Assembly: GCA_028554795.2 (NCBI GenBank)
Contig: CM068828.1
Span: 22,715,436-22,779,435 of the forward strand
Direction: 5' to 3'
Length of the DNA stretch: 64,000 nt
Origin: Sinohyriopsis cumingii
Lineage: Eukaryota; Mollusca; Bivalvia; Unionida; Unionidae
Positions 28,036 to 62,964 of the stretch are shown here, piece after piece. Numbering within the stretch: the stretch's first letter is position 1; the number at the start of each line of letters is the position of its first letter. The translations under genes were made by a program, and so were the position numbers. The notes beneath the pieces were generated by a model that saw nothing but the letters and a program-made list of their open reading frames with translations, ran no database searches and was not told the origin of the DNA.

Positions 28036-29150
28036 TTCCCAGTACCAGTAGGGTATGGTTGTACATTGCTGTGTAGGTACCAGTAGGGTATGGTTGTACA
28101 TTACATGGTTTATAGATATCCTGTGTAGGTACCAGTATAGAATGGTTGTACATTACATGGTTTATATATCTATTGTGTATATACCAGTAGGGTAAGTTTG
28201 TACATTACATCGTATATACATTTGCTGTGTAGGTACAAGTAGACTGTGGTTGTACATTATATGGTTTATACAAATTTTATATAGGCACCAGTAGGACATG
28301 GTTGTACATTACAATGTGTATATATCCTCTGTGTAGGTACCAGTAGGGTAAGTTGTATATTACATGTATGTACCATTATGGTATTTGTTGTACATAACAA
28401 GGTTTTATATATATCTTCTGTGTAGGTACCAGCAGGGTATGGTTGTACATTACATGGTTTATACGTTTGCTGTGTAGGTACCAGTAGAGTATGGTTGTAC
28501 ATTACATGGTTTATACATCTGCTGTGTAGGTACCATTAGGGTATGGTTGTATACATGGTTTATACGTTTGCTGTGTAGGTACCAGTAGGGTATGGTTATA
28601 CATTGCATGTATGTACCATTATTGTATTTGTTAAACATGGTTTATACATCCACTGTATAGGTACAGTACCAGTAGGGTAAATTTGTACATTACATGGTAT
28701 ATACATTTGCTGTGTAGGTACTAGTAGAGTGTGGTTGTACATTATATGGTTTATACAAATTTTATATAGGTACCAGTAGGGCATGGTTGTACATTACAAT
28801 GTGTATAGATCCTCTGTGTAGGTACCAATAGGGTAAATTTGTACATTACATGGTTTATATGTTTGCTGTGTAGATACCAGTTGAATATAGTTGTACATTA
28901 CATTGTTTATACATCTGCTGTGTAGGTACCAGTAGAGTATGGTTGTACATTACATGGTTTATACATCCGCTGTATAGGTACCAGTAGGGCATGATTGTAC
29001 ATTACATGGTTTATACATCCGCTGTATAGGTACCAGTAGAGTATGATTGTACATTACATTGTTTATACATTTGCTGTGTAGGTATCAGTAGTATTATGTT
29101 TGTACATTACATAGTTTATACATTTGCTATGTGGGTACCAGTATGGGCAT

Positions 29151-29213
<63 letters not shown>

Positions 29214-30786
29214 GCTGTGTAGATACCAATATGATTGTACAGTAATACTAGTTTTATACATCCATTTTGTTGGTACCAATAGGGTAAGGTTGTACATTAC
29301 ATGGTAGATGTATGTACATTTGCTGTGTAGATACCAGTACCTCAATGGGTTTTGTCTAATTAAGCCAAAATGTGCCTAAATCAAGTGATTTTCACCTAAT
29401 CATGCGAAGACCTTCCTGGTATCAGTAGGGTATGGTTGTCCAATTCATGGTGTATACATCTACTGTGTAGGAACCTTTAGGGTATGGTTTTACATTACAT
29501 GGCTCACACATCTGCTGTGTAGTACAGGTACCAGTACAGTATAGATAGATTACATGGTTTATACATCCACTGTTTTTGTATATTATATGGTTTATACAAC
29601 TTTTCTATCAGTACCATTATGGTAAGATTGCACATTACGTGGTTTATACATCAACTGCATAGGTTCCAGTAGGCTATGGTTGTACATTACATGGTTTATA
29701 TATCTTCTGAGTAGATACCAGTAGAGTATGGTTATACAAAAGTAACGCTACAAAGACAATTGGAAAGCTGCATTGAAAGCGTTCAACATAAATCCTTTTG
29801 TACAGTACATGTTGTATACATCTTCTGTGCAGGTACTATTAAGGTGTGTTTAACTTTGCACATTACATGGTTTATATATCCACTGTGTATGCACCAGTAG
29901 GGTATCATTGTGCATTACATGGTTTATACATCCACTGAGTTTGTACCAGAAAGGTGAGGTTGTACATTATATGGTTTATACATCCATCGAGTTGGTACCA
30001 GAATGGTATGGTTGTACATTACATGGTTTATACATCCGTTGAGTTGGTACCAGAATGGTGAGGTTGCACATTACATGGTTTATACATCCATTGATTTAGT
30101 ACCAGAATGGTAAGGTTGTACATTACATGGTTTATATATCCACTGTGCATGTACCAGTAGGGTATGGTTGTACATTACATGATTTATATATCCATCGAGT
30201 TGGTACCAGAATGGTATGGTTGTACGTGACAAGGTTTATACATCCACTGAGTTGGTACCAGAATGATATGGTTGTACATTACATGGTTTATACATCCATT
30301 GAGGTGGTACCAGAATGGTGAGGTTGTACATTATATGGTTTATACATCCGTCGAGTTGGTACCAGAATGGTATGGTTGTACATTACATGGTTTATATATC
30401 CATCGAGTTGGTACCAGAATGGTATGGTTGTATGTAACAAGGTTTATACATCCATTGAGTTGGTACCAGAATTGTATGGTTGTACATTACATGGTTTATA
30501 CATCCATTGAGTTGGTACCAGAATGGTGAGGTTGCACATTATATGGTTTATACATCCGTCGAATTGGTACCAGAATGGTATGGTTGTACATACATGGTTT
30601 ATACATCCATCGAGTTGGTACCAGAATGGTATGGTTGTACGTGACAAGGTTTATACATCCACTGAGTTGGCACCAGAATTGTAAGGTTGTACATTTCATG
30701 GTTTATATATCCACTGTGTATGTACCATTAGAGAATGGTTGTACATTACATGGTTTATATATCCACTGTGTAGGTACCAGTAGAGT
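28036..30786. repeat. 52-bp satellite-like array, left block
   Basis: About fifty copies of a 52-base unit: TACCAGTAGGGTATGGTTGT, ACATTACATGGTTTATACAT, then CTGCTGTGTAGG. The part at about 29930-30710 uses a distinct subtype (GAGTTGGTACCAGAATGG). A (TA) microsatellite interrupts it at 29154-29211. A single-copy-looking segment beside the array (about 27978-28035, TGGGTTTTGTCTAATTACGC) is repeated inside it at about 29346-29415, so the array and its edge were duplicated together. Confidence 0.95.
29154..29211. repeat. (TA)n microsatellite inside the 52-bp array
   Basis: About 29 TA units lie between two 52-bp monomers. They probably expanded from the TATATA in a monomer. Confidence 0.95.
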
Positions 30787-31895
30787 ATGTGGCCATGTGG
30801 TCCAATGCACTCACCGTTACGGATCACAGCCATCTCACCTCTGTCTGCATGGGCTCGAGTCTCGAATTCGCATAATGTGGGTATATGAGAAAGCTTGCCA
30901 TAGCTTCTCGTGGGTCTGTGGTTCTTTCTGGGGTGTTCCCGGGTTCTTCCTCCACCATTTATACTAGCCGCTATGAATAGCCTATCTTGTGCTGAAAAAT
31001 GGCGTTATACCCATAGCTGCCAACCTTCCATGCTTGCAATTAGTGAAAATAGGGATAAAAATTCATGAATTTTGGCATGAATTCGTGAAGCGATCTTCCA
31101 GTCAATGAATATTTGTCGGAACAAACGTTTAGGATTGTCTCCAGCTGATAAAGGTAGATTGTGTTCCACAAGAAAACTCATAAACAATGCTTCAGATTTG
31201 GTAGCTTGCAGGTCTTCCGTAGATGGCTTAAAATATTCCAGAGTTGAAATCTGGTGCGAGTTCTTAATTTCCCCAACCTCTATGTGCTTTTTGTTACCCA
31301 TGTGCTTCATCACATCATCTCTTCCACCATGCCTGATGCTAAAATTGTGGCACACTGCGTCCAAAAAGCATGATGTATATCAGTGTTTGATGGCTGAATG
31401 CACGGCCAACTTTTGGTACATTTCAAACTAAACTTCACTTTTTGTGCATTACATTTCTTTTTCCTTGTTGGTGAAGACATTTTCAAGATACAACGCTGAA
31501 TGGTAATTCAAATAAGTGTTTGCGGCGCAAGCGCGGAGCAAAATTCCGGTCAGGCCCCAGTTTCTCTCAAAAGCATTTGTAAAACTACGCTTATGCATAT
31601 AAATTAAAATACACTAAAATACTTGCTACCGGGCCAACTGTACCAATCAGCTATGGTTCCAGTAATGTCGCGACCAGCAGTACCGGACCGTTCGGCAACT
31701 GCCTATATCTCGACTTGCGCTTAATGGCAAATCGGTTATTTTATTAAAGAATTAAAATAATTGAGAATTGGGGAATTCGTGATTTTTTTTTTTTTTTTGC
31801 ATGCGGCGTGAATCAGTGAATCGCTGAAAAAGTCGTGAAATTCACACCAAAATCGTGAGGGTTGGCAGCTATGTAAACCCTACAACAACAACAAC
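30787..31895 (+). mobile_element. tRNA-derived SINE, family B, copy 2 (split by a hAT-like element)
   Basis: The SINE head begins GTGGCCATGTGGTCCAATGC. The body contains TGTGGGTATATGAGAAAGCT and GGTTCTTCCTCCACCATTTA and is cut after GCTGAAAAATGGCG near 31012. The AAC-rich tail resumes at 31881. It sits in the 52-bp array, flanked by near-identical direct repeats CCAGTAGAGTATG and CCAGTAGACTACG. Those repeats resemble the array monomer itself but read as a target-site duplication. Confidence 0.85.
31013..31872 (-). mobile_element. Non-autonomous hAT-like element inside the SINE
   Basis: This 860-base element has inverted ends ATAGCTGCCAACC. It is flanked by TTATACCC and GTAAACCC, an imperfect 8-base duplication of the SINE site, as expected for hAT transposons. 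The minus strand keeps the N-terminal part of a transposase: a lysine-rich start (MSSPTRKKK), then a BED-type zinc finger whose frame shifts near 31350 (FSIRHGGRDDVMKHMGNKKH), then SFLVEHNLPLSAGDNPKRLF. The DDE core and C-terminal dimerisation region are missing, so it cannot move by itself. The same family appears more completely at 60820-62964. Confidence 0.8.
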
Positions 31896-33220
31896 CAGTA
31901 GACTACGTTTGTACATTATATGATTTATACATATGCTGTGTAGGTACCAGTAGAGAATGGTTGTACATTACACGGTTTATGCATCTTCTGTGTAGGTACC
32001 AGTAGAGTATGTTTGTACATTACATGGTTTATACATATGCAGTGCAGGTAACAGTAGAGAATGGTTGTACATTACACGGTTTATACATTGGCTGTATAGG
32101 TACCAGTAGAGTATGGTTGTAGATTACATGGTTTATAGATCAACTGTATAGGTACCAGTAGGGTAAGGTTGTACATTACATGGTTTATACATCAACTGTA
32201 TAGGTACCAATAGGGTATGGTTATACATTACATGGTTTATACATCTTCTGTGCAGGAACCAGTACGGTAAGGTTGTACATGACATGGTTTATACATCAAC
32301 TGTATAGGTACCAGTAGGGTATGTTTATACATTGCATGGTTTATACATCTTCTCTGTAGGTACCAGTAGAGTATGGTTGTACATTACATGGTTTATAGAT
32401 CAACTGTATAGGTACCAGTAGGGTAAGGTTGTACATTACATGGTTTATACATCAACTGTATAGGTACCAGTAGGGTATGGTTATACATTACATGGTTTAT
32501 ACATCTTCTCTGTAGGTACCAGTAGAGTATGGTTGTACATTACATGGTTTATACATCTTCTCTGTAGGTACCAGTAGAGTATGGTTGTACATTACATGGT
32601 TTATACATCAACTATATAGGTACCATTAGGGTAAGGTTGTACATTACGTGGTTTGTACATCCGCTGTATAGATATCAGTAGTGTATGGTTATAAATTATG
32701 TGGTTTATACATCAACTGTATAGGTTCCAGTTGAGTATGAGTGTATTATTCATGGTGTATAAATCTTCTATGTAGGTACCAGTAGGGTAAGGTTGTACAT
32801 TACATGGTATATACATCTGCTTTGTGGATACCAGTAGAATATGGTTGAACATTACATAATTATACATCTTCTGTGTAGATACCAGTAGGGTATGGTTGTA
32901 CATTACATGGCTTACACATCTTCTGTGCAGATACCAGTAGAGTACGTTTGTACATTACATGGTTTATACATCAATTGTATAGGTACCAGTAGTGTATGTT
33001 CGTACATGACATGGGTTATACATCAACTATATAGGTACCAGTAGGGTATGGTAGTACATTACATGGTATATACCTCTGCTGTGTAGAAACCAGTAAAGTA
33101 TGGTTTAACATTACATGGTTTATACATCACCTGTGGTACCAGTAGGGTAAGGCTGTACATTATATAATTAAACATCTTCTGTGTATGTACCAGTAGTGTA
33201 TGGTTGTACATTACATGGTT
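31896..33220. repeat. 52-bp satellite-like array, middle block
   Basis: About 25 more copies of the 52-base unit, mostly the GGTACCAGTAGGGTA subtype with ATCAACTGTATA or ATCTTCTGTGTA linkers alternating. This gives a 104-base higher-order period near 32120-32600. It ends in mid-monomer (ACATTACATGGTT) at the LINE insertion. Confidence 0.95.
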
Positions 33221-35069: not shown

Positions 35070-35969
35070 TTGAACCTGTCTGTACGTACAATCCTGATGA
35101 AGAGTGCACCAAAGACATGTGAACTTGATCCAATTCCAACATCACTGCTGCTTGAGTGCTTAGATCCAGTATTTCCTTCACTAACTGATGTTATCAATAC
35201 CTCTCTCGCATCAGGGGAATTCTCATCATTTTTCAAAACTGCCATTGTAAATCCTCTGCTGCAGAAACCAACACTAGACCATAACGATTTAAAGAACTAC
35301 CGCCCAGTTTCTAATCTCCCATTCATATAAAAAAATCTTAGAAAAGGTTTTTCTATCCCAGCTTGTATCTCATCTGAATTCAAACAGTCTTTATAGCAAT
35401 GTACAATCTGCATATCGCCCTTGCCACAGTACTGAAATTACTCTTCTAAAATTAATGACATTCTCTCTGCTTTGGATAGCGGAACGATAACAGTCCTCAG
35501 CCTCCTTGATTTGTCTGCAGCATTTGACACAATAGACCATGATATATTACTTAGCCGTCTCCAGCATGTATTTGGCATTCATGATACAGCCTTACTGTGG
35601 TTCAAGTCCTACTTGGTCAACAGGACACAAATTGTGTCTGCAAATGGAATACACTCCAGCCCAGTTAATCTATGTTGTGGTGGTCCGTTTTTGGACCCGT
35701 TCTTTTCATTCTGTACACTCAGCCGCTCTCAAGTGTCATAGATCATCACCCTGTGTCTCACCAATTGTACGCTGACAACATCCAAATATACAAATCTGGC
35801 CACCCAACTGAAGTTGATGCTACCATACAAGGCATAGAGAGGTGCATTTCTGATGTGAAATCATGGATGACATGTAACAAGCTGCAGATGAATGAGGATA
35901 AAACTGAGGCCATTCTGATCACAACACAAAGACTTTCTCATTCACATCCTTTACCTCAAACAATAAATA
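35070..35969 (+). pseudogene. LINE reverse transcriptase, 5' part (broken by frameshifts and by an insertion)
   Basis: Frames here give ELDPIPTSLLLECLDPVFPS, KPTLDHNDLKNYRPVSNLPF, LSLLDLSAAFDTIDHDILLS (RT motif with the first catalytic aspartate), GPVLFILYTQPLSSVI and HQLYADNIQIYKSG. In the last, the usual YADD box reads YADN, a changed catalytic residue. The frame ends at the boundary of the DNA transposon, after QTIN. The order and spacing are those of L2/CR1 reverse transcriptases. A frameshift near 35330 and another near 35690 are visible in addition to the insertion. Confidence 0.85.
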
Positions 35970-36078
35970 CACTGGTCAACAGTGAAATCATTACTGACTT
36001 GAAAAGGCCCTAATCTGTAGTATTTTGGTGTGCCGAACACGAATATAACCGTGAAAAATTTGTATTGGCTCTCGTTTT
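35970..36078 (+). repeat. Left terminal and subterminal inverted repeat of the DNA transposon
   Basis: The outer 12 bases are CACTGGTCAACA. The inner block starting GTGCCGAACACGAATAT and ending TTGGCTCTCGTTTT pairs with the right end. Between them the two ends are only weakly similar. Confidence 0.85.
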
Positions 36079-36227
36079 GAAGATATTCATATACCTCATT
36101 TTCTATGTTTCACTGTGTAAATTTCTCCAGTAGGACTGCAGCAACATCCGGAATAATGATGTAACATTGCATAATACCATCATGCTCACATCATCCACAG
36201 TTGATTGCATCATTTTCTGATGCAATG

Positions 36228-36350
36228 CAATACTAATGCCATGCGGCTGCTGAAGTAAGTTGACGTCAGCAGTGTACTATACATGTGTAGGCCTATTATA
36301 CTAATGCCAGGCGGCTGCTGAAGCTGACGTAAGCAGTGTACTATATAAAG
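36228..36350 (+). promoter_or_regulatory. Duplicated promoter segment with CRE-like site and TATA box
   Basis: A segment starting ACTAATGCCA(T/G)GCGGCTGC and ending GCAGTGTACTATA occurs twice in tandem (about 36228-36281 and 36298-36347). The first copy holds the perfect CRE palindrome TGACGTCA (36261-36268), the second TGACGTAA. Only the second copy ends in TATATAAAG (about 36343-36350), a good TATA box lying about 115 bases before the transposase ATG. The arrangement looks like a self-contained promoter of the transposon. Confidence 0.6.
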
Positions 36351-36463
36351 CCCAATCAGATAGGTTCAGCATTTAAAATATTTTAGACGTTGTGCGAGAC
36401 AGTTCAAGCTACTGTTACATAAAACTTATTATTTTATCCATTTACGTACAATAAAGAACAGTA

Positions 36464-38152
36464 ATGCCTCGAAAGTGTGTTAATACCGTGGACAATTTTT
36501 GCTATATTTGTGGGGAAGTGACATTTGCCAACCAGAAGAAAAGTATCAATTCTCAAGTGAAGAAGGCATATCATCTTTACTTCGGATGCAAGGTTGGTGA
36601 CCAAGACAAGCCTTGGGCTCCGCATATATGCTGTGCTACATGTACAACACAGCTTTCACAGTGGTTGAATTGCAAAAGGTCATCAATGCCGTTTGCAGTC
36701 CCAATGGTGTGGAGAGAGCCAAGCAACCACCTAAATGACTGTTACTTCTGCTTGGTTCCTCCTCTTTCCGGCGGAATAACGAAGCGAAAGAAGTCGAGAA
36801 TAGTCTACCCAAACATTCCGTCTGCATTGAGACCAGTTCCACATGGTGAGGGACTTCCTATTCCAGAACCTCCAGCAGAATATTCTCTTGATTCATCTGA
36901 CGAAGACAAAGGTGAGTCGACCTGTTCTTCTCCTGGTCCATCAGCATGCAGTGATCCAGATTTTCACTGTGGTGCATCATCAACCCCACACAGAATAACA
37001 CAGGAAGAACTAAATGACCTGATTCGTGATTTGGACTTATCAAAGAACAAGGCAGAATTGCTAGGATCAAGACTCCAACAATGGAATCTTCTAGAAGAAG
37101 ATGTCACAATTACTGCATATCGAAAGCGCCACCAGCAATTGGAGCCTTTCTTCAGAAAGGAAAGTAATCTGATATTCTGTTCCGATATTGAGGGCCTCAT
37201 GAATGCTTTAAAAATCACTCATGACCCACAAGAATGGAGACTATTTGTGGACTCTTCGAAACTGAGTCTCAAGGCTGTGCTTTTGCACAATGGAAACATT
37301 CTTCCATCTATTCCAGTAGCGTATGCTGTCCACATGAAAGAGACATACGATAACTTAAGGCAGCTACTGAATTCCATTGAGTATAACAAGTACAGCTGGC
37401 ACCTCTGTGGTGATTTGAAGGTAGTTGCCCTTTTAATGGGACTGCAGCAAGGATATACAACATACATGTGTTTCTTATGCGAGTGGGATAGCCGAGCAAG
37501 GGAAAAGCACTACATGAGGAAGGAATGGACTCACAGGCAGAATGTAGCCATTGGAGAGAAGAATATCCAACACCCAGCTCTGGTTGAGGCTCAGAAAATC
37601 TTGCTACCACCCCTTCACATCAAACTAGGTTTGATGAAGAACTTCGTGAAAGCCATTGACCGGACTTTGCCAGCATTCCGATACCTGCATGAAAAATTCC
37701 CTCGACTCAGCGAAGCAAAGATTAAAAAGGGAGTTTTTGTGGGTCCTCAGATTCGAGAGCTTTTCAAAGATGACCGGTTCAACAACTTGCTGGAAGGTGA
37801 CGCGAAACAAGCATGGAATGCTTTTCGCCTAGTTTCTACAAACTTCCTCGGAAATGTTAGGGCAGAAAACTATAAGGAACTAGTAGAAGACATGTTGATG
37901 AAGTATAAGAAACTTGGCTGCAATATGTCTCTAAAGATTCACTTCCTTCATTCCCATTTGGATTTCTTTCCTAGCAACTGTGGTATTGTTAGTGATGAAC
38001 ACAGCGAACGTTTTCATCAAGATATCGCAACAATGGAACAAAGATACCAGGGAAAATGGTCCACTACAATGCTGGCTGACTACTGCTGGACACTCCTCAG
38101 AGATGCTCCCGAACAGCTGTACAAGAGACAGGCGAAGAAATCTAAGATGTAG
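36464..38152 (+). CDS. Transposase-like protein of the CACTGG-ended element, 562 aa, intact frame
   Basis: A single uninterrupted frame from ATG to TAG. The N-terminus carries a zinc-binding pattern resembling a ZAD/THAP-type finger: C13xxC16, then C57xxC60 after the FGCKVGDQDKPWAPH stretch. Residues about 110-170 are proline-, serine- and acid-rich. The C-terminal two thirds carry a DDE-like core: FVDSSKLSLKAVLLHNG (first Asp), HLCGDLKVVALLMGLQ (second Asp), then CFLCEWDSR (a CxxC insertion), LPPLHIKLGLMKNFVKAID, and DEHSERFHQDI, which supplies the Glu and an H-x4-H. D, D, CxxC, LH and E in this order is the arrangement known from CMC-type transposases. Close relatives occur as uncharacterised proteins in many invertebrates such as aphids (from memory). 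It likely binds the element's ends and cuts and pastes it. The catalytic assignments are inferred. Confidence 0.85.
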   Translation: MPRKCVNTVDNFCYICGEVTFANQKKSINSQVKKAYHLYFGCKVGDQDKPWAPHICCATCTTQLSQWLNCKRSSMPFAVPMVWREPSNHLNDCYFCLVPPLSGGITKRKKSRIVYPNIPSALRPVPHGEGLPIPEPPAEYSLDSSDEDKGESTCSSPGPSACSDPDFHCGASSTPHRITQEELNDLIRDLDLSKNKAELLGSRLQQWNLLEEDVTITAYRKRHQQLEPFFRKESNLIFCSDIEGLMNALKITHDPQEWRLFVDSSKLSLKAVLLHNGNILPSIPVAYAVHMKETYDNLRQLLNSIEYNKYSWHLCGDLKVVALLMGLQQGYTTYMCFLCEWDSRAREKHYMRKEWTHRQNVAIGEKNIQHPALVEAQKILLPPLHIKLGLMKNFVKAIDRTLPAFRYLHEKFPRLSEAKIKKGVFVGPQIRELFKDDRFNNLLEGDAKQAWNAFRLVSTNFLGNVRAENYKELVEDMLMKYKKLGCNMSLKIHFLHSHLDFFPSNCGIVSDEHSERFHQDIATMEQRYQGKWSTTMLADYCWTLLRDAPEQLYKRQAKKSKM

Positions 38153-38250
38153 TCAATGACTTGATTTTTTATAGGTAGGCTATTACAGTTGACCTTTTAC
38201 TATTGGAATGCATTTCGTTATGTAAACATTAATTTCTTGCAGATTACAAA

Positions 38251-38369
38251 AAAACTAGAGCCAATTTTGCAATTTGACTGTCATATTCGTGTTCAGCACA
38301 TAAAAATTGATAAGAATTGACTAATTTTATTTCAGTAACATGACTTTTGTAAAAATTTGTTGTCCAGTG
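38251..38369 (-). repeat. Right terminal and subterminal inverted repeat of the DNA transposon
   Basis: It ends in TGTTGTCCAGTG, the inverse of the left end with one change. The inner block (38251-38299) contains ATATTCGTGTTCAGCAC. The following three bases ATA repeat those before the left end. Confidence 0.85.
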
Positions 38370-39009
38370 ATATCAGCAATGCCAACATTAAATTCACACA
38401 ATCAGTATGAAACCTAGGTGTTACTCAAGACAGTACTCTCACTTTGCACCAACATGTCATGAACATATGCAAGGCTGCATATCTTGAGCTGAGACGCATC
38501 AGCTCCATTCGCAAATATCTTTCAGTTGATGCAACTAAAACACTTATGTGTTCATTAGTACTTTCAAGACTGGACTATTGTAACTCAATTCTGTCTGGTT
38601 CATCTCAATATCTACTCCAGAAACTTCAAAACACAGCTGCTCAGATCATACTTAGATTACCACGATCAGAGCACACCTCCCCGCTGTTCTGTATCCTACA
38701 CTGGCTATCCATTCAATCCAGGATCAAACACAAAATTTGTTCTGTGTTATGTTTCACTGACGGACTCTAGTCCAACATAGCTATCCAACCTCACCCATGT
38801 GTATACACCAGCAAGATATGCTCCTCTTCTGACAATCGTATACTCATTATTCCCACTATGAAAACAAAGTCATATGGACAGCGTTCTTTTGCATACCTGG
38901 GCCCAGCAATGTGGAATGAATTGCCCACTGAACTTAGTCATAAAGACACAGTGATCCCATTCAAGAGCGCTCTCAAAACTCACTTATTTCGACTGCAAGA
39001 ACAAACTTA
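38370..39009 (+). pseudogene. LINE reverse transcriptase, C-terminal part (after the inserted transposon)
   Basis: The frame resumes as ISNANIKFTQSV, one stop, then NLGVTQDSTLTLHQHVMNIC and LVLSRLDYCNSILSGSSQYL, RLPRSEHTSPLFCILHWLSI and, after another stop, SFAYLGPAMWNELPTELS and FKSALKTHLFRLQ. These are the standard thumb and tail motifs of L2/CR1 polymerases (LGV.LD, SRLDYCN.LL, LHWLPI, WN.LP, FK..LKTHLF). Two in-frame stops are seen. Confidence 0.85.
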
Positions 39010-39183: not shown

Positions 39184-39655
39184 ATATACATCTGCTGTGT
39201 ATGTACCAGTAGGTTATGGTCATGTATTACATGGTGTATACATCTTCTGTGTAGAAACCAGTAAAGTATGGGTATACATTACATGGTCTATACATCAACT
39301 GTATAGGTACCAGTAGGATAAGGCTGTACATTATATAATTAAACATCTGGTTAGTAGATACCAGTAGACTATGGTTGTACATTACATGGTTTATACATCT
39401 TCTGTGTAGATGCCAGTAGAGTATGGTTGCACATTACATGCTTTATACATCTTCTGTGTAGATACCAGTAAGTTAAGGCTGTACAGTACATGTTGGTACC
39501 AGTAGGATAAGTTTGTACATTTCATGGTGTATACATCTTCTGTGTAGGTACCAGTAGGGTAAGGTTGTACATTACATTGTTTATACATCCTCTGTGTAGG
39601 TACCAGTAGGGTAGGTTTCTACATTACATGTAGGTACCAGAAGGGTAAGGTTGCC
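39184..39655. repeat. 52-bp satellite-like array, right block
   Basis: About nine more monomers resume in register after the LINE (ATATACATCTGCTGTGTATG...), several of them shortened or rearranged. The array stops near 39655. Confidence 0.92.
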
Positions 39656-44472: not shown

Positions 44473-47400
44473 CTGAAAAAAGCAAATATATATATATATA
44501 TTAAAAGGATATCTAAAAGTTGCTGATGATATTTATTTGTGAACAGTCTCATTTAAAATGCAGTCTTAATGTCGATATACAAACTTTCCTGAAAGATTCA
44601 TCAAGTCAGTGGTATATTTTGAGCTAAACAAGAAAGGAATCTAGTGATGAAATTGCTACTTCAAAAGAATAAGTTCTGAGATGATAACATTTGTACCTGG
44701 TTTATGTTGACAGGAATCAATATAAGGCACATCAATTGTGTGCGTTTCTGGTTTATGCTGACAGGAATCGATATAAGGCACATCAATTGTGTGTGTTTCT
44801 GGCTTATGCTGACAGGAATCGATATAAGGCACATCAATTGTGTGTGTTTCTGGTTTATGTTGACAGGAATCGATATAAGGCATATCAACTGTGTGTGTTT
44901 CTGGTTTATGCTGACAGGAATCGATATAAGGCACATCAGTTGTGTGTGTTTCTGGTTTATGCTGACAGGAATCGATATAAGGCATATCAATTGTGTGTGT
45001 TTCTGGTTTATGTTGACAGGAATCGATATAAGGCATATCAATTGTGTGTGTTTCTGGTTTATGCTGACAGGAATCGATATAAGGCATGTCAACTGTGTGT
45101 GTGTTTCTGGTTTATGCTGACAGGAATCGATATAAGGCATATCAATTGTGTGTGTTTCTGGTTTATGCTGACAGGAATCGATATAAGGCACATCAATTGT
45201 GTGTGTTTCTGGTTTATGCTGACAGGAATCGATATAAGGCATATCAACTGTGTGTGCTTCTGGTTTATGCTGACAGGAATCGATATAAGGCACATCAACT
45301 GTGTGTGTTTCTGGTTTATGCTGACAGGAATCGATATAAGGCACATCAACTGTGTGTGTTTCTGGTTTATGCTGACAGGAATCGATATAAGGCATATCAA
45401 CTGTGTGTGTTTCTGGTTTATGCTGACAGGAATTGATATAAGGCACATCAATTGTGTGTGCTTTTTAAGGATTTTAATGTAGCTTTAATAACTTGTTTCC
45501 TGTTACTAGGATTTATGCAGTGTGACAGTTCACAGTGATGTCTAGCACTGGGACATTATGCTGCAGACATGCAGCATCATGTCCCACCCAGTTACATTAT
45601 CCTGACACCAGGCCGACCAATACTAAACACAAACCTCTTAATGCTGAGAGCCAAGCGAGGCAGGTGCTATTTATCAATTATAACTGTGCTCAATACATTA
45701 TTTAAAATAATGTAACTTACAATTTGACCCCAAGTCGAAGCTCCAGCATAGACTTTATATTTGGCAATGTCTGTCGGAGATCTTGAGTTCCCAAGCCACA
45801 ATAGAACCTCAACTATCAACAAAAAAAGGAAAAAATAAAACTTTGAAATAGTAGATTCAAGACCACTTAAGGAAATAATTAATTAATCCTTTCAGAAAAG
45901 AATTCAGACTACATTTAAAATTTAGGCTATATTTTAATTTGCATTTCTCCTTCATCATCATAAAAGAACTTTAAAATAATGGCTAACTTTACCAAATCTG
46001 CAACTTTTCTTCACCTGCATTATAATGAATTCCAACTTCTTTCATTTCCATTGTACTTGCATTTCAGCTATTATCTGATTACTTTTTGTTTAGTCTCAGA
46101 AAATGCATTCTGATTTTGCATCTATTATTTCATCATTTTGTTTTCATTCATTTTGGAATAAAAGAAAAAAGATTATTCATTTACCACAGCCAGTAGATCC
46201 ATTTTCAAAACTGATGGTTTTATATTTGTGTCTTACCAAAAGTGTGCTTTATTAAAACAGCAAATAAAAGATGACAGTAAATTTATGACAAATAAGAATA
46301 GTACTGCAACTGCAACAAATGTGAAAATATAGTTGTGGAGTATTTGTCTGCAAATATTTTTCCTATTTTGCTTTGTTCAAATTGTACAGATATACCCACT
46401 GGTAATGTTATTACATCAACTTAAGTCGGTCTCAATAAAAACAGCCTGTAAGGAGTGAAAAACCTGGTGTTAATAATCCCATCCCAGATTATTATTTGTG
46501 AGAACTTTCCACCATGGAAATTTAATGGCAGCCTGAAAAAAATAATCAATTTTTAGATCAGCTCATGCTGGCATTTTAATCCATATTTGTTTACCATTCT
46601 TCATTCTGCATTTTGCATTTGCATTCTCCATTTTCTTCAAATGAATTCATCATTTTGTTTGTCTTCATTCTGCATTCCAGTTTAGTTTAATCAGTAAAGT
46701 ATCTGTTATTGAGACTGTACTATGCATTTCAAATGCTATTACTTTTTTTGATGTTGTTGTTGTTGTTTTGGGGCTTAACGCCATTTTTCAGCACATGATA
46801 GGCTATACATGGCGGCCAGTATTAATGGTGGAGGAAGAACCCGGGAAAATCCCGGAAAGAACCACCGACCCACGAGAAGCTACTGGCAAGCTTTCTCACA
46901 TACCCACATTGGCTGAATCCTAGACTCGAACCGCCGCAGACAGAGGTGAGATGGCAGTGATCCGTAACGGAGAGCGCTTTAGACCACTCGGCCACTCGGG
47001 GCCCCGCTTTTTTTGAAATAGTTCTTAAATAAATCAAGCACATTTGAACAAAGAAAGGTATATTCCAAAACTACTGATGACAATAAATGTACATACTTTT
47101 ATGCTATACAAGAACAACACTTATTAGACACATTGAAAGAAAAGAAATACATACAGGAACTCATACGGTAATTTTGTAATACTAAATGAACAAGAAATAT
47201 TCCATAGAACATGCATCCATCTCTCAGTCTTGACCATTAAAACTAAAACATTAAATAGGCATGAGTATTGAAAGCCACAGTGACCTATACGGAAGAGTAC
47301 TGAAAGCCATATTTTAAGTGCAGCCAGTAACCCTGACCTTTGATTTCAAAATCAAAAGGAATCTTCCTTACATAAGACAGTCTACACATAGCAGCCAATA

Positions 47401-50400
47401 TATTTGGTGGATGAAGAACCTGGAAAACTCCCAGGAAGAACCACTGACCCACAGGACATTACTGGCACATTTTCTCGTATACTCACATGGGCCAAACTCA
47501 AGACTTGAACCTGCACAGAATAGGTTAGATGTCAGTGACCTATAAAGGTGAGTGCCTTAGACAACATGGCCAGATGGGTCCCCTTTAGAAAAGGTACATT
47601 GTTGATAACTGAAACCTTTCAGTTGCAGTGACCATGACTTGAAGTGACCCCTGACTTTAAACCTTCTGAACCCAAACTGATAGGTTTCTTCATTATCCCA
47701 AGTGTAAGCCATAAACAAAGCCTAGTCCAGGCTCATGATTTAGAACTCGTGTTATTGTGTGGAAACCATTTCTTTTCAATCACAATTACCATGACATTTG
47801 ACCATAATATTAATAGGATTCCTACTTAACTCAAGTGAATGCCATCCATAAAATTTAATTACTGCAAGTGGTGGAGAACTCAAGTTATTGTGCAGTAACT
47901 ATTTTGCTTTTGTGTCACAGTAACCTTAATCTATGAGTCTAAAATTTATAAGGGTCTTCCGTATCTCAAGTGTAAGTCATTCACAAAGCTTCATAACTGT
48001 ATTTCGTGAACAACTCAAGTTATTGTGAGAAATGAAATTGCTAACAAAAGATGGAAAGGCAGAAAGACAAAGGATGGAAAGGCAGAAAGACAAATGAACA
48101 ACATAATATGCTCCCCATACTGCAGGCACATCAAAATCCAGGTAACTAAAAGACACTCACCTGGCTTGTATTTTTGTTTAGCAGGAAGACTCCATAGTTA
48201 AACTGGAATTTTTCTCTGCCTTTACTATACAATGGAAAACTGGAAGAAAAAGAAGACAATTCAGCATATTCAAGTTTTAAAGCAAATAAATAAACAGTTA
48301 CAGTTACAGCATATATTCATACAGTTGTGTGCACAGGATTAGATTTCATACATAAAACTATTGAATCATACATTTTCAGACGTACTGCATCAAGATGAAA
48401 CAAAATACTTGAACTCCTTTTTACATCAAACAGGATCCTATTTTAATTTTAAACTAGAAATGTGTTCATGATGCAAGAATGTCCTTTTCCTGTGCAGTGC
48501 ATTCATTTCCTGATCAAAATGAACAAACAACTCTAATCATGGTGTGATGAATACATGGAAGGAAAGATGGACACATGACATTATAAGCTCATTAATATTT
48601 TCCGTGAGTCCACTCTGGTGGCCTGGTGGTTTGAGCATCTGCCTTGGATGCAGGAGGTTGCAGGTTCAAACCCTGGCCGAGTCATACCAAAGACTTGTAC
48701 AAATGGTACAAACAGCTGCCTTGCTAGGCACTCAGCATTAAGAAATTAGTGTTAGGACTGGTCAGCCCCAGTGCCACATGGCAGACATCATAGCAACATG
48801 ACTGAAAAACTGTTAAAGTGATGTCCAAAATCCAAATCACACACACATCTTTTTGTGGTAGGGCACTGAAGTGGTTCAAGCAGGCATGATGCTGAACATC
48901 TGGCTTACATAACAGTTTACCAAACATACAGTACACATGGCTTTCATAAAAGCTGACCATACACCAGTCTTATGCTAAATTATAAGAACACAACCTATGC
49001 AAAATATCTCATAAACTTCATATCATGTTGATTTTATATTTTACTATAGTCTGATAGAATTTATTTACAAAGATAACAGCATAATCATCACGCCCATAGT
49101 TCAAGATATCAAAGATCTTGAAAGATTAAGTTTACCGACAAAGTTCTAATTTGTAACCTATAGAATCAAATGTCTTTCACGTGAATTCTGGATATTGTTT
49201 ATTGCAAACAGTTGAAATAAAAAGCATAAATTCCAAATACATTCTAGTTAATGGCATTTAACATGTTATATATCATTAAAAAATGCAAAATACAAGTGAA
49301 CATATAAAACAACAAATGTTTCAGGCACTTCAACATAGCAATACTAGCAAATGTCAAGCTCCACTTCACCCGACGTATCAAACTTGCTTCCAAATATTCA
49401 AGAATTTCAAATATGGCACAATGTCTAGAAATAAGTCTCTGAATTCGATCATGGTTTTTACAATATGTTCATTATTGGAGCAAAATCAATATTATAAATA
49501 AAAACTGCAATAAAATATCCAAAATCAGGTGAAGAAATTCTAATCCTAAGTTACAACACTGCACAAAGTTTAAGATGCCTTCAACTGAACATTTACTCCA
49601 GCAATATTTCTTTTTCGTACTTTTTCTTGAGCTATAAATGACAAATTATTAATTTTAACCCATAAGGGAGCTAACTCTGATACTTATTTTTATTATTTTG
49701 CTATGGGGGCGCTCACCAGTTATGTACTTTTGAGAGAGTGATGTATGTAAGGTGAAGTTGTTTGCATTTAAAACATGCACAGTGGAGAGAATGGTGGCAT
49801 ACCTCTATGCTACATTAATGTAATGTGGATGATATTTCTTTGGATATTGTACTTTTGGAAATTGTACATGATTTAAACTCACTGCTAACTAAAATGAATG
49901 CTCCCTTGTGCTAAAAAATCAGCCTGAATTAGTCTAAAGTATACTATCCACAGCAGCTATTAAAACAGGGAAAATGAATTTTGCCAGACTAGACAATACC
50001 AGCTTCTGAAAGTGCAATGAATGAATTACCAAATACATAAAATGTAAAAAACGTTATCGGCTCTTTTTTATACAATTTACCTCTGAAGTTCAGGAAGTGA
50101 AAATGACCAAGTGGAGCAATCACTTTTTTGAAAGGTGCACACTGGAGTAAGGCCAAGCTGTATACTCTATAACCCATATTTTACACCCATCAATCATATA
50201 CCAAAATAAAGGGAATTAAAGGTTCTTTGAATTATACCTAAGATATACAAGGTCTTTTTTAAACAGCCAGTATAACCAGTGAGGAAAGCTGGGGAAATTC
50301 GTTTTCTTTAAAATCCTAACCCTATGCAAAATAAGAAACTGTAGAGTGCCACCTAATTATTACATATGGTTCTATTAACATTTATGCATCTTATATTCTA

Positions 50401-60819: not shown

Positions 60820-62964
60820 CAATACATGCCAACCCCTGGCAAGGAAAAAGTGTAATCCAAGTGGACAAAAACAGTAATCTGAGCAGAAAAAGAGTAATCC
60901 ACATATAACATGATAAAAATTCAATGAGCATATATGTACAAAATGATTTATTTATCCCTCTGGACTTTTAACATCAATTACTGCTTCAAGTTTTCATATA
61001 TAATGCTTTGAGCTTTAAGAAGCAACAAACTCTCATATCGCATTTCAAAACAGTTTGTACCAGCTGAGACTATGAATGTTTTGCACACCAGCAGAGATCC
61101 AAGTGCTGGGTTACAGAGACTGGATCTGAATTCAGTTTTATTTCTGATACTGAACAATCTCTCTGTCAGCATTAGAATAGTAAAAAACTAATATTCCTTT
61201 CATAACCTTACAAAGAGGAAATTTATGAATTACAGTTATTGGGTCTTTTAGTGGGAAAATAAGATGAAAAAAAATAAATTCTGTCCACATGAAGTACGTT
61301 GTCAGGTTGAAAGTCAACTTGATACTTCAAGAGTTCTCCTTCTAATTTATCAGCAGCCTTTCCTGAAGCATGGTACATCATATAACAGAGACAACCTGAT
61401 ACGTACAATGATGAAGACATTTTTCAAAATATAAAATGCAACTACTTTATGAATTCCAGTCATCACTGATGCAGTATCAGCTGAAAACCCATACAGTTCT
61501 GCCAGCATATGTTTATTCAAAAACATTATAAAGCAAATACATAAAATGTTTTCTCAAGTGGAATCTACTGTTAAATATGGTAATGAAAGAAGAGCACTCT
61601 GACTTTGCCCTTTTCATTTTCAAAGTCTCTTACAAAGACTGGGCACAACTTTTTGTCACAATCACTACTCCTGTCTGTTGCAATACTAAACAGTCCAATT
61701 ATCATGGCTTCTGTAATTTTAAGTGAAGTATCTTCTGCTAAACACCTAACAATATTAGATGATTTTGTTCTTGCACATGCATATTTTCTGCAATTTTGGA
61801 ATCAGGAAACCTTGTCAGAACAAAGGACCAATGTAGTCTTCTACCGCTAGATGTTGTCCGTGTTTTATTAAGATGTGATGTGATTTTTGATTTTTAACGT
61901 AGCTTTAACAATTTTTCAGTTATATTGCTACGATGTCTGCAATGTGGCAGTTTATAGTGATGTCTAGCACTGGGGCATCATGCCGCAGACATGTAGCACG
62001 ATGTCCCACCCAGTCACATTATCCTGACACCAGGCCGACCAGTCCTAACACTAACCTCTTAATGCTGAACGCCAAGCGAGGCAGCTGTTAGTACCATTTT
62101 TTAAGTCTCTGGTATGACTCGGCCGGGGATCGAACCCACGACCTCCCGCATCCGAGGCGGACGCTCTAACCACTAGGCCACCGGAGCGGTGTTTTATTAA
62201 GAACTCAGTAGATAACACATCTGCATTTATAAAATTCATGTCCACAATTTAGTTCGGCTGTATAAAAAGAAGTTACCTCAGTACTGGAGTTAGTAAATGA
62301 GCTAATTCAATGTTTCTTGTTTTACCATGACCAATATTAAAATCCTTTCCACACAGCCTGCAAGGAGCATGAAGGTCCCTAGAATGGAATGCTGTATTGT
62401 GTAATTCATGTATTCATCTCGGAATCAGTTTTTTGTCTTTTCCTAATCCATCTGTGAAATTATTTGAAAAATATTTTTGCTCTAACACGCATCGACTATA
62501 ATAAAATGAACTTGACTTATAGCGCCAAATACCTACAGACTGGTTCTGTTTTGAATTAGAACAAAGAATCTGCGAGCTAAAAGTTAGAAAACCAGTCTGT
62601 TCTCTCCTAACTAAGCCATACAGCTGCTATAAATAGAAACCAAGGTCAAAAGTTGAAAGTAGAAACCAGCATGTTTCTTGAAGTAGGGCAACTGCTATAA
62701 ATAGAACATAAAACTGTTAGGAAAGTGTATGCAAGTCTTCGGACAAGCGTACTCTTATGTCGTAGTTACATATAAGCTGTCTTTTCTAGAATATGGCCTG
62801 TGGGATTAATGGGATGTTAATAAAAATGAGAAAACAAATTATAAATTTTTTGGGAGGGGGATATACCGAAAACACATAATCCAAATACAGTTATAAATAA
62901 TGCGTAATTTGGTGAAAAAAAGCGTAATGATTATGCCAAAAGCATAATGGTTGACATGTATGTG
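60820..62964 (-). mobile_element. hAT transposon relic with transposase remnants
   Basis: The ends read CAATACATGCCAACC and, inverted, CACATACATGTCAACC. The minus strand runs in the right order for a hAT transposase: a BED-type finger (CRLCGKDFNIGHG, about 62360), then KYACARTKSSNIVRCLAEDT and EAMIIGLFSIATDRSSDCDK (about 61600-61790, the first catalytic Asp region), KLEGELLKYQVDF (about 61310), and LTERLFSIRNKTEFRSSLCN plus PALGSLLVCKT (about 61070-61170, the C-terminal dimerisation region). The frame is interrupted by stops and shifts, and a family A SINE has landed inside (61874-62188). No 8-base duplication was found. Confidence 0.75.
61874..62188 (-). mobile_element. tRNA-derived SINE, family A, copy 6 (full length, best preserved)
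   Basis: Exact 14-base target duplications GTGTTTTATTAAGA flank it (61860-61873 and 62189-62202). The minus-strand head CGGTGGCCTAGTGGTTAGAG ... GGTTCGATCCCCGGCCGAGT folds like a tRNA, and the anticodon loop reads CTCGGAT. The proline-like identity (CGG) is only a guess. It inserted into the hAT relic and is therefore younger. Confidence 0.95.

Follow-up and report, generated by a model that had tools for sequence, protein, structure and literature searches.

The stretch analysed here, 64,000 nucleotides of contig CM068828.1 of the bivalve Sinohyriopsis cumingii (positions 22,715,436 to 22,779,435; hereafter the window), carries a DNA transposon with CACTGG ends that occupies exactly positions 35970-38369 (2,400 bp), inside an older long interspersed nuclear element (LINE). 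The features that a preliminary description had read from the letters of this DNA, namely inverted ends, subterminal inverted blocks, an ATA target duplication and an uninterrupted gene of 562 codons, are all present and correct to the base (Table 1). Very probably, the element is a young autonomous cut-and-paste transposon that belongs to the CMC group (CACTA, Mirage, Chapaev), with Chapaev3 as its most likely kind. This kind is known; what is new is the family itself and its copy structure, with about 4,900 copies and nearly every sampled one complete.

The element and its insertion site

The left repeat CACTGGTCAACA and the inverted right repeat TGTTGTCCAGTG are identical at 11 of 12 positions. 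The end motif alone is weak evidence, because near-matches to it are about as frequent as chance predicts: exact matches to CACTGGWCAACA in the window are found only at the two ends of the element, and with up to two mismatches there are 15 sites versus 13.6 expected. The borders are fixed by the flanking pair of ATA triplets, by the frame of the joined LINE and by uninterrupted LINE sites elsewhere in the genome. Once the element and one ATA are taken out, the LINE again reads QTINISNANIKF, and across the flanks joined in this way the frame reads PLPQTINISNANIKFTQSV followed by a stop. This in-frame rejoining had been claimed from the window alone, and the same site with a single ATA is found uninterrupted in all six LINE copies that were read elsewhere (6/6). 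The stop right after the insertion site is not specific to the window, since five of these six copies have it. Over the joined site of 297 bases, 40 scored LINE copies (the best 40 of 1,541 candidates) align along at least 295 bases with 96-97% identity. The LINE is recognised by matches to the reverse transcriptase domain RVT_1, with E 9.6e-8 at 35669-35968 and, more weakly, E 1.3e-4 at 35436-35738, below the Pfam curated cut-off.

The subterminal inverted blocks of the element are also recovered when the window is compared with itself by blastn (E 2e-5). The leader of the gene contains a direct duplication of about 50 bp (36230-36345), which extends to the TATA-like box and is perhaps a duplicated promoter element. 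Outside the element, one 52-bp satellite unit is arrayed on either side of the host LINE, at 28055-30789, 31894-33220 and 39185-39653.

Table 1. Features of the transposon and of its insertion site, with positions in the window.
Feature	Position	Strand	Evidence
Host LINE to the left of the insertion (reverse transcriptase part, frame broken)	35436..35969	+	RVT_1 matches in different frames
ATA target duplication, left copy	35967..35969		single ATA at 6/6 uninterrupted LINE sites read
Left terminal inverted repeat, CACTGGTCAACA	35970..35981	+	identical end in 40/40 scored copies
Subterminal inverted block 1, left arm	36022..36056		83% to 38273-38307; blastn
Subterminal inverted block 2, left arm	36064..36078		93% to 38251-38265
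Leader direct repeat, copy 1	36230..36281	+	86.5% to 36298-36345
Leader direct repeat, copy 2	36298..36345	+	86.5% to 36230-36281
Possible TATA box of the transposase gene, TATATAAA	36342..36349	+	motif match
Single-exon transposase gene, 562 codons, stop-free	36464..38152	+	open reading frame; no match in Pfam or NCBIfam, no significant sequence match in the PDB
Subterminal inverted block 2, right arm	38251..38265		93% to 36064-36078
Subterminal inverted block 1, right arm	38273..38307		83% to 36022-36056
Right terminal inverted repeat, TGTTGTCCAGTG (minus-strand reading CACTGGACAACA)	38358..38369	-	same end in 39/40 copies, one base changed in the other
ATA target duplication, right copy	38370..38372		single ATA at 6/6 uninterrupted LINE sites read
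Host LINE, continuation right of the insertion	38370..38770	+	first 150 bases contiguous with the left part in copies elsewhere

Copies in the host genome

We searched the host genome (2.905 Gb, 1,138 contigs) for exact 30- or 31-mers of the element. There are 4,956 occurrences of the left-end 30-mer, 4,862 of an internal 30-mer taken from the 3' part of the gene, and 4,856 of the right-end 31-mer; the reversed control of each has zero matches. These totals are lower bounds, since only exact matches were counted; about 4,900 copies of 2.4 kb amount to about 12 Mb, or 0.4% of the genome. Places are described from the first 100 listed for each k-mer and for the degenerate pattern mentioned below. 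On contig C1, the internal 30-mer accompanies 94 of the first 100 left ends at the distance of a full-length copy (1,934-1,979 bases, and exactly 1,970 in 80 of them); one left end has it at 1,110 bases and five lack it. The first 20 of these left ends include 19 full-length copies (2,392-2,400 bp). The 30-mer counts detect those derivatives that retain the ends, and miniature inverted-repeat transposable elements (MITEs) with shorter common ends may exist besides. Locus L060 (C1:1359842-1362361) has an internal deletion, and about 17 kb further on an exact right end is found in the same orientation; this copy was possibly split by a later insertion.

A DNA search for copies yielded 79 candidates, from which the best 40 by closeness, the window's included, were scored as full-length copies. 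All 40 start and end at identical positions and are flanked by a matching 3-bp duplication, at 40 distinct target sites (in L012, the match extends by chance to six bases). Genomic copies with other end positions would have refuted the preliminary description, and these 40 bear it out instead. A protein search gave 9,587 first-look candidates, and 71 of the 77 that were scored, on contigs C1-C3, have one same bit score; judging from this equality, at least 71 copies on these contigs probably encode one identical protein. We conclude that the family spread in a recent burst that left few deletion derivatives retaining the ends. So many complete copies with so few shortened ones are unusual.

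The closeness-ranked copies are a biased source of shared variants and of a majority sequence (from which the three of the 40 with another length were left out). Age and selection were studied in a second sample, the first 20 left ends on C1 in coordinate order and regardless of similarity, which provides 16 copies of exactly 2,400 bp (from L058-L077) once L060 (deletion, no right end in the stretch) and L061, L072 and L076 (length differences) are dropped. These 16 copies differ from their own majority at 5.4 positions on average (0.227%; range 3-11, variance 4.0) and from one another by 0.45%, with five variants common to two copies. Their 87 differences comprise 39 missense, 17 synonymous, 4 nonsense and 27 non-coding changes, against a neutral expectation of 42.5, 16.2, 4.0 and 24.3, respectively. 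The copies have drifted near-neutrally after insertion, and the pattern is that of a burst of copies drifting independently. With 0.45% between sampled transposon copies and 3-4% between the window's LINE site and its closest scored copies, the transposon is, as had been proposed, younger than its host LINE. Changes of C to T or G to A are about 8.5 times as frequent at CpG as at other C or G positions (20/1,728 versus 19/14,032 in the 16 copies of 2,400 bp), which suggests that the transposon copies are methylated in the germ line.

Compared with the majority of this sample, the copy in the window carries five differences, all missense, one of them at a residue between the two histidines of the H(4)H motif described below. 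It is thus an ordinary copy with slight drift, which qualifies its description as intact-looking. Little can be read about activity from its open frame, because five missense changes are present and 12 of the 16 sampled copies have an open transposase frame under near-neutral decay. The suggestion that the element may still be active is therefore weak as far as it was drawn from the open frame; the copies speak for recent activity of the family. No copy in the small sample of 16 has fewer than three differences from the majority, so that it gives no sign of insertions happening now.

Both samples also inform on the target. Among the 40 sites of the closeness-ranked copies, A is found at position -4 in 33 and T at +4 in 32, and the duplicated triplet is TWA in 19, while TWA makes up 5.5% of background triplets near these copies. 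In the coordinate-order sample, an exact 3-bp duplication flanks 17 of the 19 full-length copies (all except L068 and L076), with A in 16/17, T in 12/17 and TWA in 10/17. Altogether, the 3-bp duplication is present in 57/59 full-length copies, it is preceded by A in 49/57 and followed by T in 44/57, and the consensus is A-TWA-T, with TWA as the duplicated part.

Probable assignment to Chapaev3 and its rivals

In the product of the single-exon gene (P0001), the putative catalytic and zinc-binding residues, assigned by motif position, are in order D263, D317, C336/C339, LH385, H513/H518 and E525. The motifs are spelled C336-FL-C339, L384-H385 and H513-SERF-H518, that is C(2)C, LH and H(4)H, of which the first and the last sit between the second D (D317) and the last E (E525). 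The N-terminus is rich in cysteine and histidine (C13, C16, H37, H54, C57, C60, C93, C96). Chapaev3 elements were described in Repbase Reports of 2007/2008 (cited in PMC4411706) and in PMC4079192. They have CAC...GTG ends, a 3-bp TWA duplication between A and T that is held by all those examined, C(2)C, LH and H(4)H motifs and mostly a single exon (PMC4079192), and a Chapa zinc finger is said to be common to their transposases (PMC4411706). More widely, transposases of CMC and Transib have a matching order of motifs, D, D, C(2)C, H(3-4)H and E (PMC12730594). Our element has CACTGG/CCAGTG termini with a 3-bp duplication (in 40/40 and 17/19 copies), in line with the CAC..GTG termini and duplications of 2-4 bp that mark the CMC group, and the A-TWA-T consensus and the three motifs of Chapaev3.

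Two described elements come close. Merrow (Chapaev3-1_PM), of sea and Arctic lamprey, has 2,451/2,455 bp and 78+484 = 562 amino acids, where ours has 2,400 bp and 562 amino acids, and what it shares with ours at the level of the group are CAC..GTG ends, a duplicated TWA preceded by A and followed by T, and the motifs C(2)C, LH and H(4)H (PMC4079192). It differs in having two exons instead of one, and >254 and >249 copies (fragments >100 bp counted) instead of about 4,900. Garfield, a Chapaev3 element of silkworm, is similar in length (2,289 bp, 556 amino acids) and has the 3-bp TWA duplication, but it has two exons, and in silkworm >7 full copies stand beside 97 short derivatives, the reverse of the ratio found here (PMC4079192). 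Table 1 of the same paper, which uses other counting criteria, gives up to >254 copies for full elements and has as its largest entry a short derivative with 281 copies; in silkworm and lizard, short derivatives exceed full elements in number. The preliminary description had expected the element to give a transposon identity to a usually uncharacterised protein family. This is not supported as a first identity, for the ends, duplication, target, motifs and lengths fit the already described Chapaev3. As to this particular element, no description was found in the literature mentioning Chapaev3, in a search outside of which lay most subscription journals and Repbase, and the motif strings of the transposase led to no paper in the literature search.

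We had considered that the genome might be without older relatives of the family, since the nine matches of a first pattern of the transposase all belong to this family. This idea was wrong: a second, degenerate pattern for the LMKNFVK stretch that excludes the codon of this family matches 148 places, which are, among the 100 listed, mutated family members and older relatives. Eight older loci were read (L092-L095, L097-L100), and they have stops and frame breaks; 19 of their 28 tblastn pieces have 40-60% amino acid identity, with a range of 26-75%. All except L098 look like one old family (73-82% pairwise nucleotide identity, 87% for two short ones), and L098 looks, by its sequence, like a third lineage. 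At its right ends, the old family is compatible with a CACTGG-like terminus of the type CACTGGTCTACAATTTT (five copies, unchanged only in L100), and its left ends were not found. Chapaev3-like elements have thus been in the host genome more than once. In the pieces that cover each residue, these relatives retain D317 in 5/6, C336 in 7/8, C339 in 6/9, H385 in 6/8 and H518 in 4/4. No relatives of the transposase were found in viral contigs, phages or plasmids, and eight pattern matches in viral contigs gave no tblastn match to it. A single locus (L048) from the search of the genome-contig collection was rejected as a chance match on the basis of its translation.

Several observations weigh against the assignment to Chapaev3, which is drawn from published descriptions of the group. 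Strict TWA is found at only 29/57 exact-duplication sites, which makes it a preference and not a rule, and the ATA of the window is itself not TWA but a minority variant (9/57). The older relatives retain D263 in 4/7, H513 in only 1/4 and E525 in 2/4 pieces; in the tblastn alignment, L100 also lacks H513 and E525, and L098 keeps E525. Retention this low means that the relatives give no support for these three residues, though decay explains some of the loss, and H513 and E525 are the least supported of our assignments. P0001 has no match in Pfam or NCBIfam, and those to PHROG (E 0.047) and the PDB (E 0.91) are at chance level. DUF1280 (PF06918), a domain equated with Chapaev transposases (PMC3985635), does not match it up to E 10; Chapaev3 is called only distantly related to other Chapaevs (PMC4411706). 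Searching PDB with a profile of the transposase gave nothing useful and a Pfam scan of 20 aligned transposase rows gave chance-level matches only. AlphaFold models are poor, with a mean pLDDT of 38 for the single protein and 47 for the 20-row alignment, and fold searches with them returned nothing at E 0.001 or better, so that the DDE fold is unconfirmed. In the 20-row model, strands and helices near D263 and D317 follow each other in an order reminiscent of RNase H, a likeness too weak to serve as evidence. The gap in Pfam may leave such transposases listed as uncharacterised.

An alternative that we regard as unlikely, though worth weighing, is a CMC transposon from outside Chapaev3 (EnSpm/CACTA proper, Mirage, or an unnamed animal CMC clade with, for instance, relatives of CNEST), which would move by the same cut-and-paste mechanism. 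CACT-type ends and 3-bp duplications are CMC-wide: CNIRT6, which like CNEST is a Cryptococcus element with a transposase of CMC type, has ends that begin with CACTG (PMC12810828), and in fungal families of EnSpm type, CAC..GTG ends go together with 3-bp duplications (PMC12730594). The C(2)C and H(3-4)H motifs are likewise group-wide (PMC12730594). Yet the A-TWA-T consensus, the 2.4 kb and the single exon for 562 amino acids fit Chapaev3 (PMC4079192), while CNEST and CNIRT6 measure about 7.2 and 7.5 kb and CNEST has TA duplications and starts with CACGG (PMC12810828). Transposase_21 (PF02992, searched up to E 10) and DUF1258 do not match P0001. A missing Pfam match is weak evidence here, and these two do not discriminate because DUF1280, the Chapaev domain, is unmatched too.

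Transib and RAG1 have CAC ends, which we count in favour of a Transib/RAG1-like transposon, and a target duplication of 5 bp. It is on this length that we rejected such an origin, which is highly improbable: the duplication has 3 bp in 57/59 copies, and no RAG1 or Transib chain of the PDB was matched by sequence or by profile. The likeness lies in the C(2)C and H(3-4)H motifs between the second D and the E (PMC12730594), and in the placement of Chapaev3 in a wider Transib superfamily (PMC4411706). A conserved host gene, a domesticated transposase or a repeated segmental duplication, with which the uninterrupted gene alone would be compatible, can be dismissed almost with certainty given about 4,900 copies, near-neutral nonsynonymous and synonymous counts and, decisively, 3-bp duplications at 40 different target sites in the 40 copies examined.

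Multiplication of the family and remaining features of the window

As a Chapaev3-like transposon, the element would express its transposase from the single-exon gene behind the TATA-like box; the enzyme would bind the ends and the subterminal blocks, cut the element out and insert it elsewhere with a 3-bp stagger. What the sequences show of this route is limited to the ends, the stagger and the target preference. Deletion derivatives may be scarce because the burst did not last long enough for them to build up, or because multiplication took place mainly without interrupted gap repair. We put forward, as a tentative idea that is rather unlikely to be right in full, that a single recent Chapaev3 founder, possibly arrived by horizontal transfer, gave rise to some 5,000 complete coding copies and to almost no short non-autonomous derivatives. 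If this were true, interrupted gap repair would rarely be part of the route of multiplication, and a number of the many open copies may still be mobile. With so few shortened copies among almost 5,000, the family is a clean natural case in which to study how cut-and-paste multiplication may proceed without giving rise to MITEs. We met no demonstration of an animal Chapaev-type element moving in the available parts of the literature, where no search was aimed at one; the many open copies, the known ends, the target preference and a ready empty site would make movement directly testable here.

Elsewhere in the window, two tRNA-Pro-like sequences (48611-48684 and 62115-62187) are either genes or heads of short interspersed nuclear elements. 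A tandem array with a 51-bp unit (44656-45484) is open in all six frames, for 117-267 codons, probably just because the unit length is a multiple of three.

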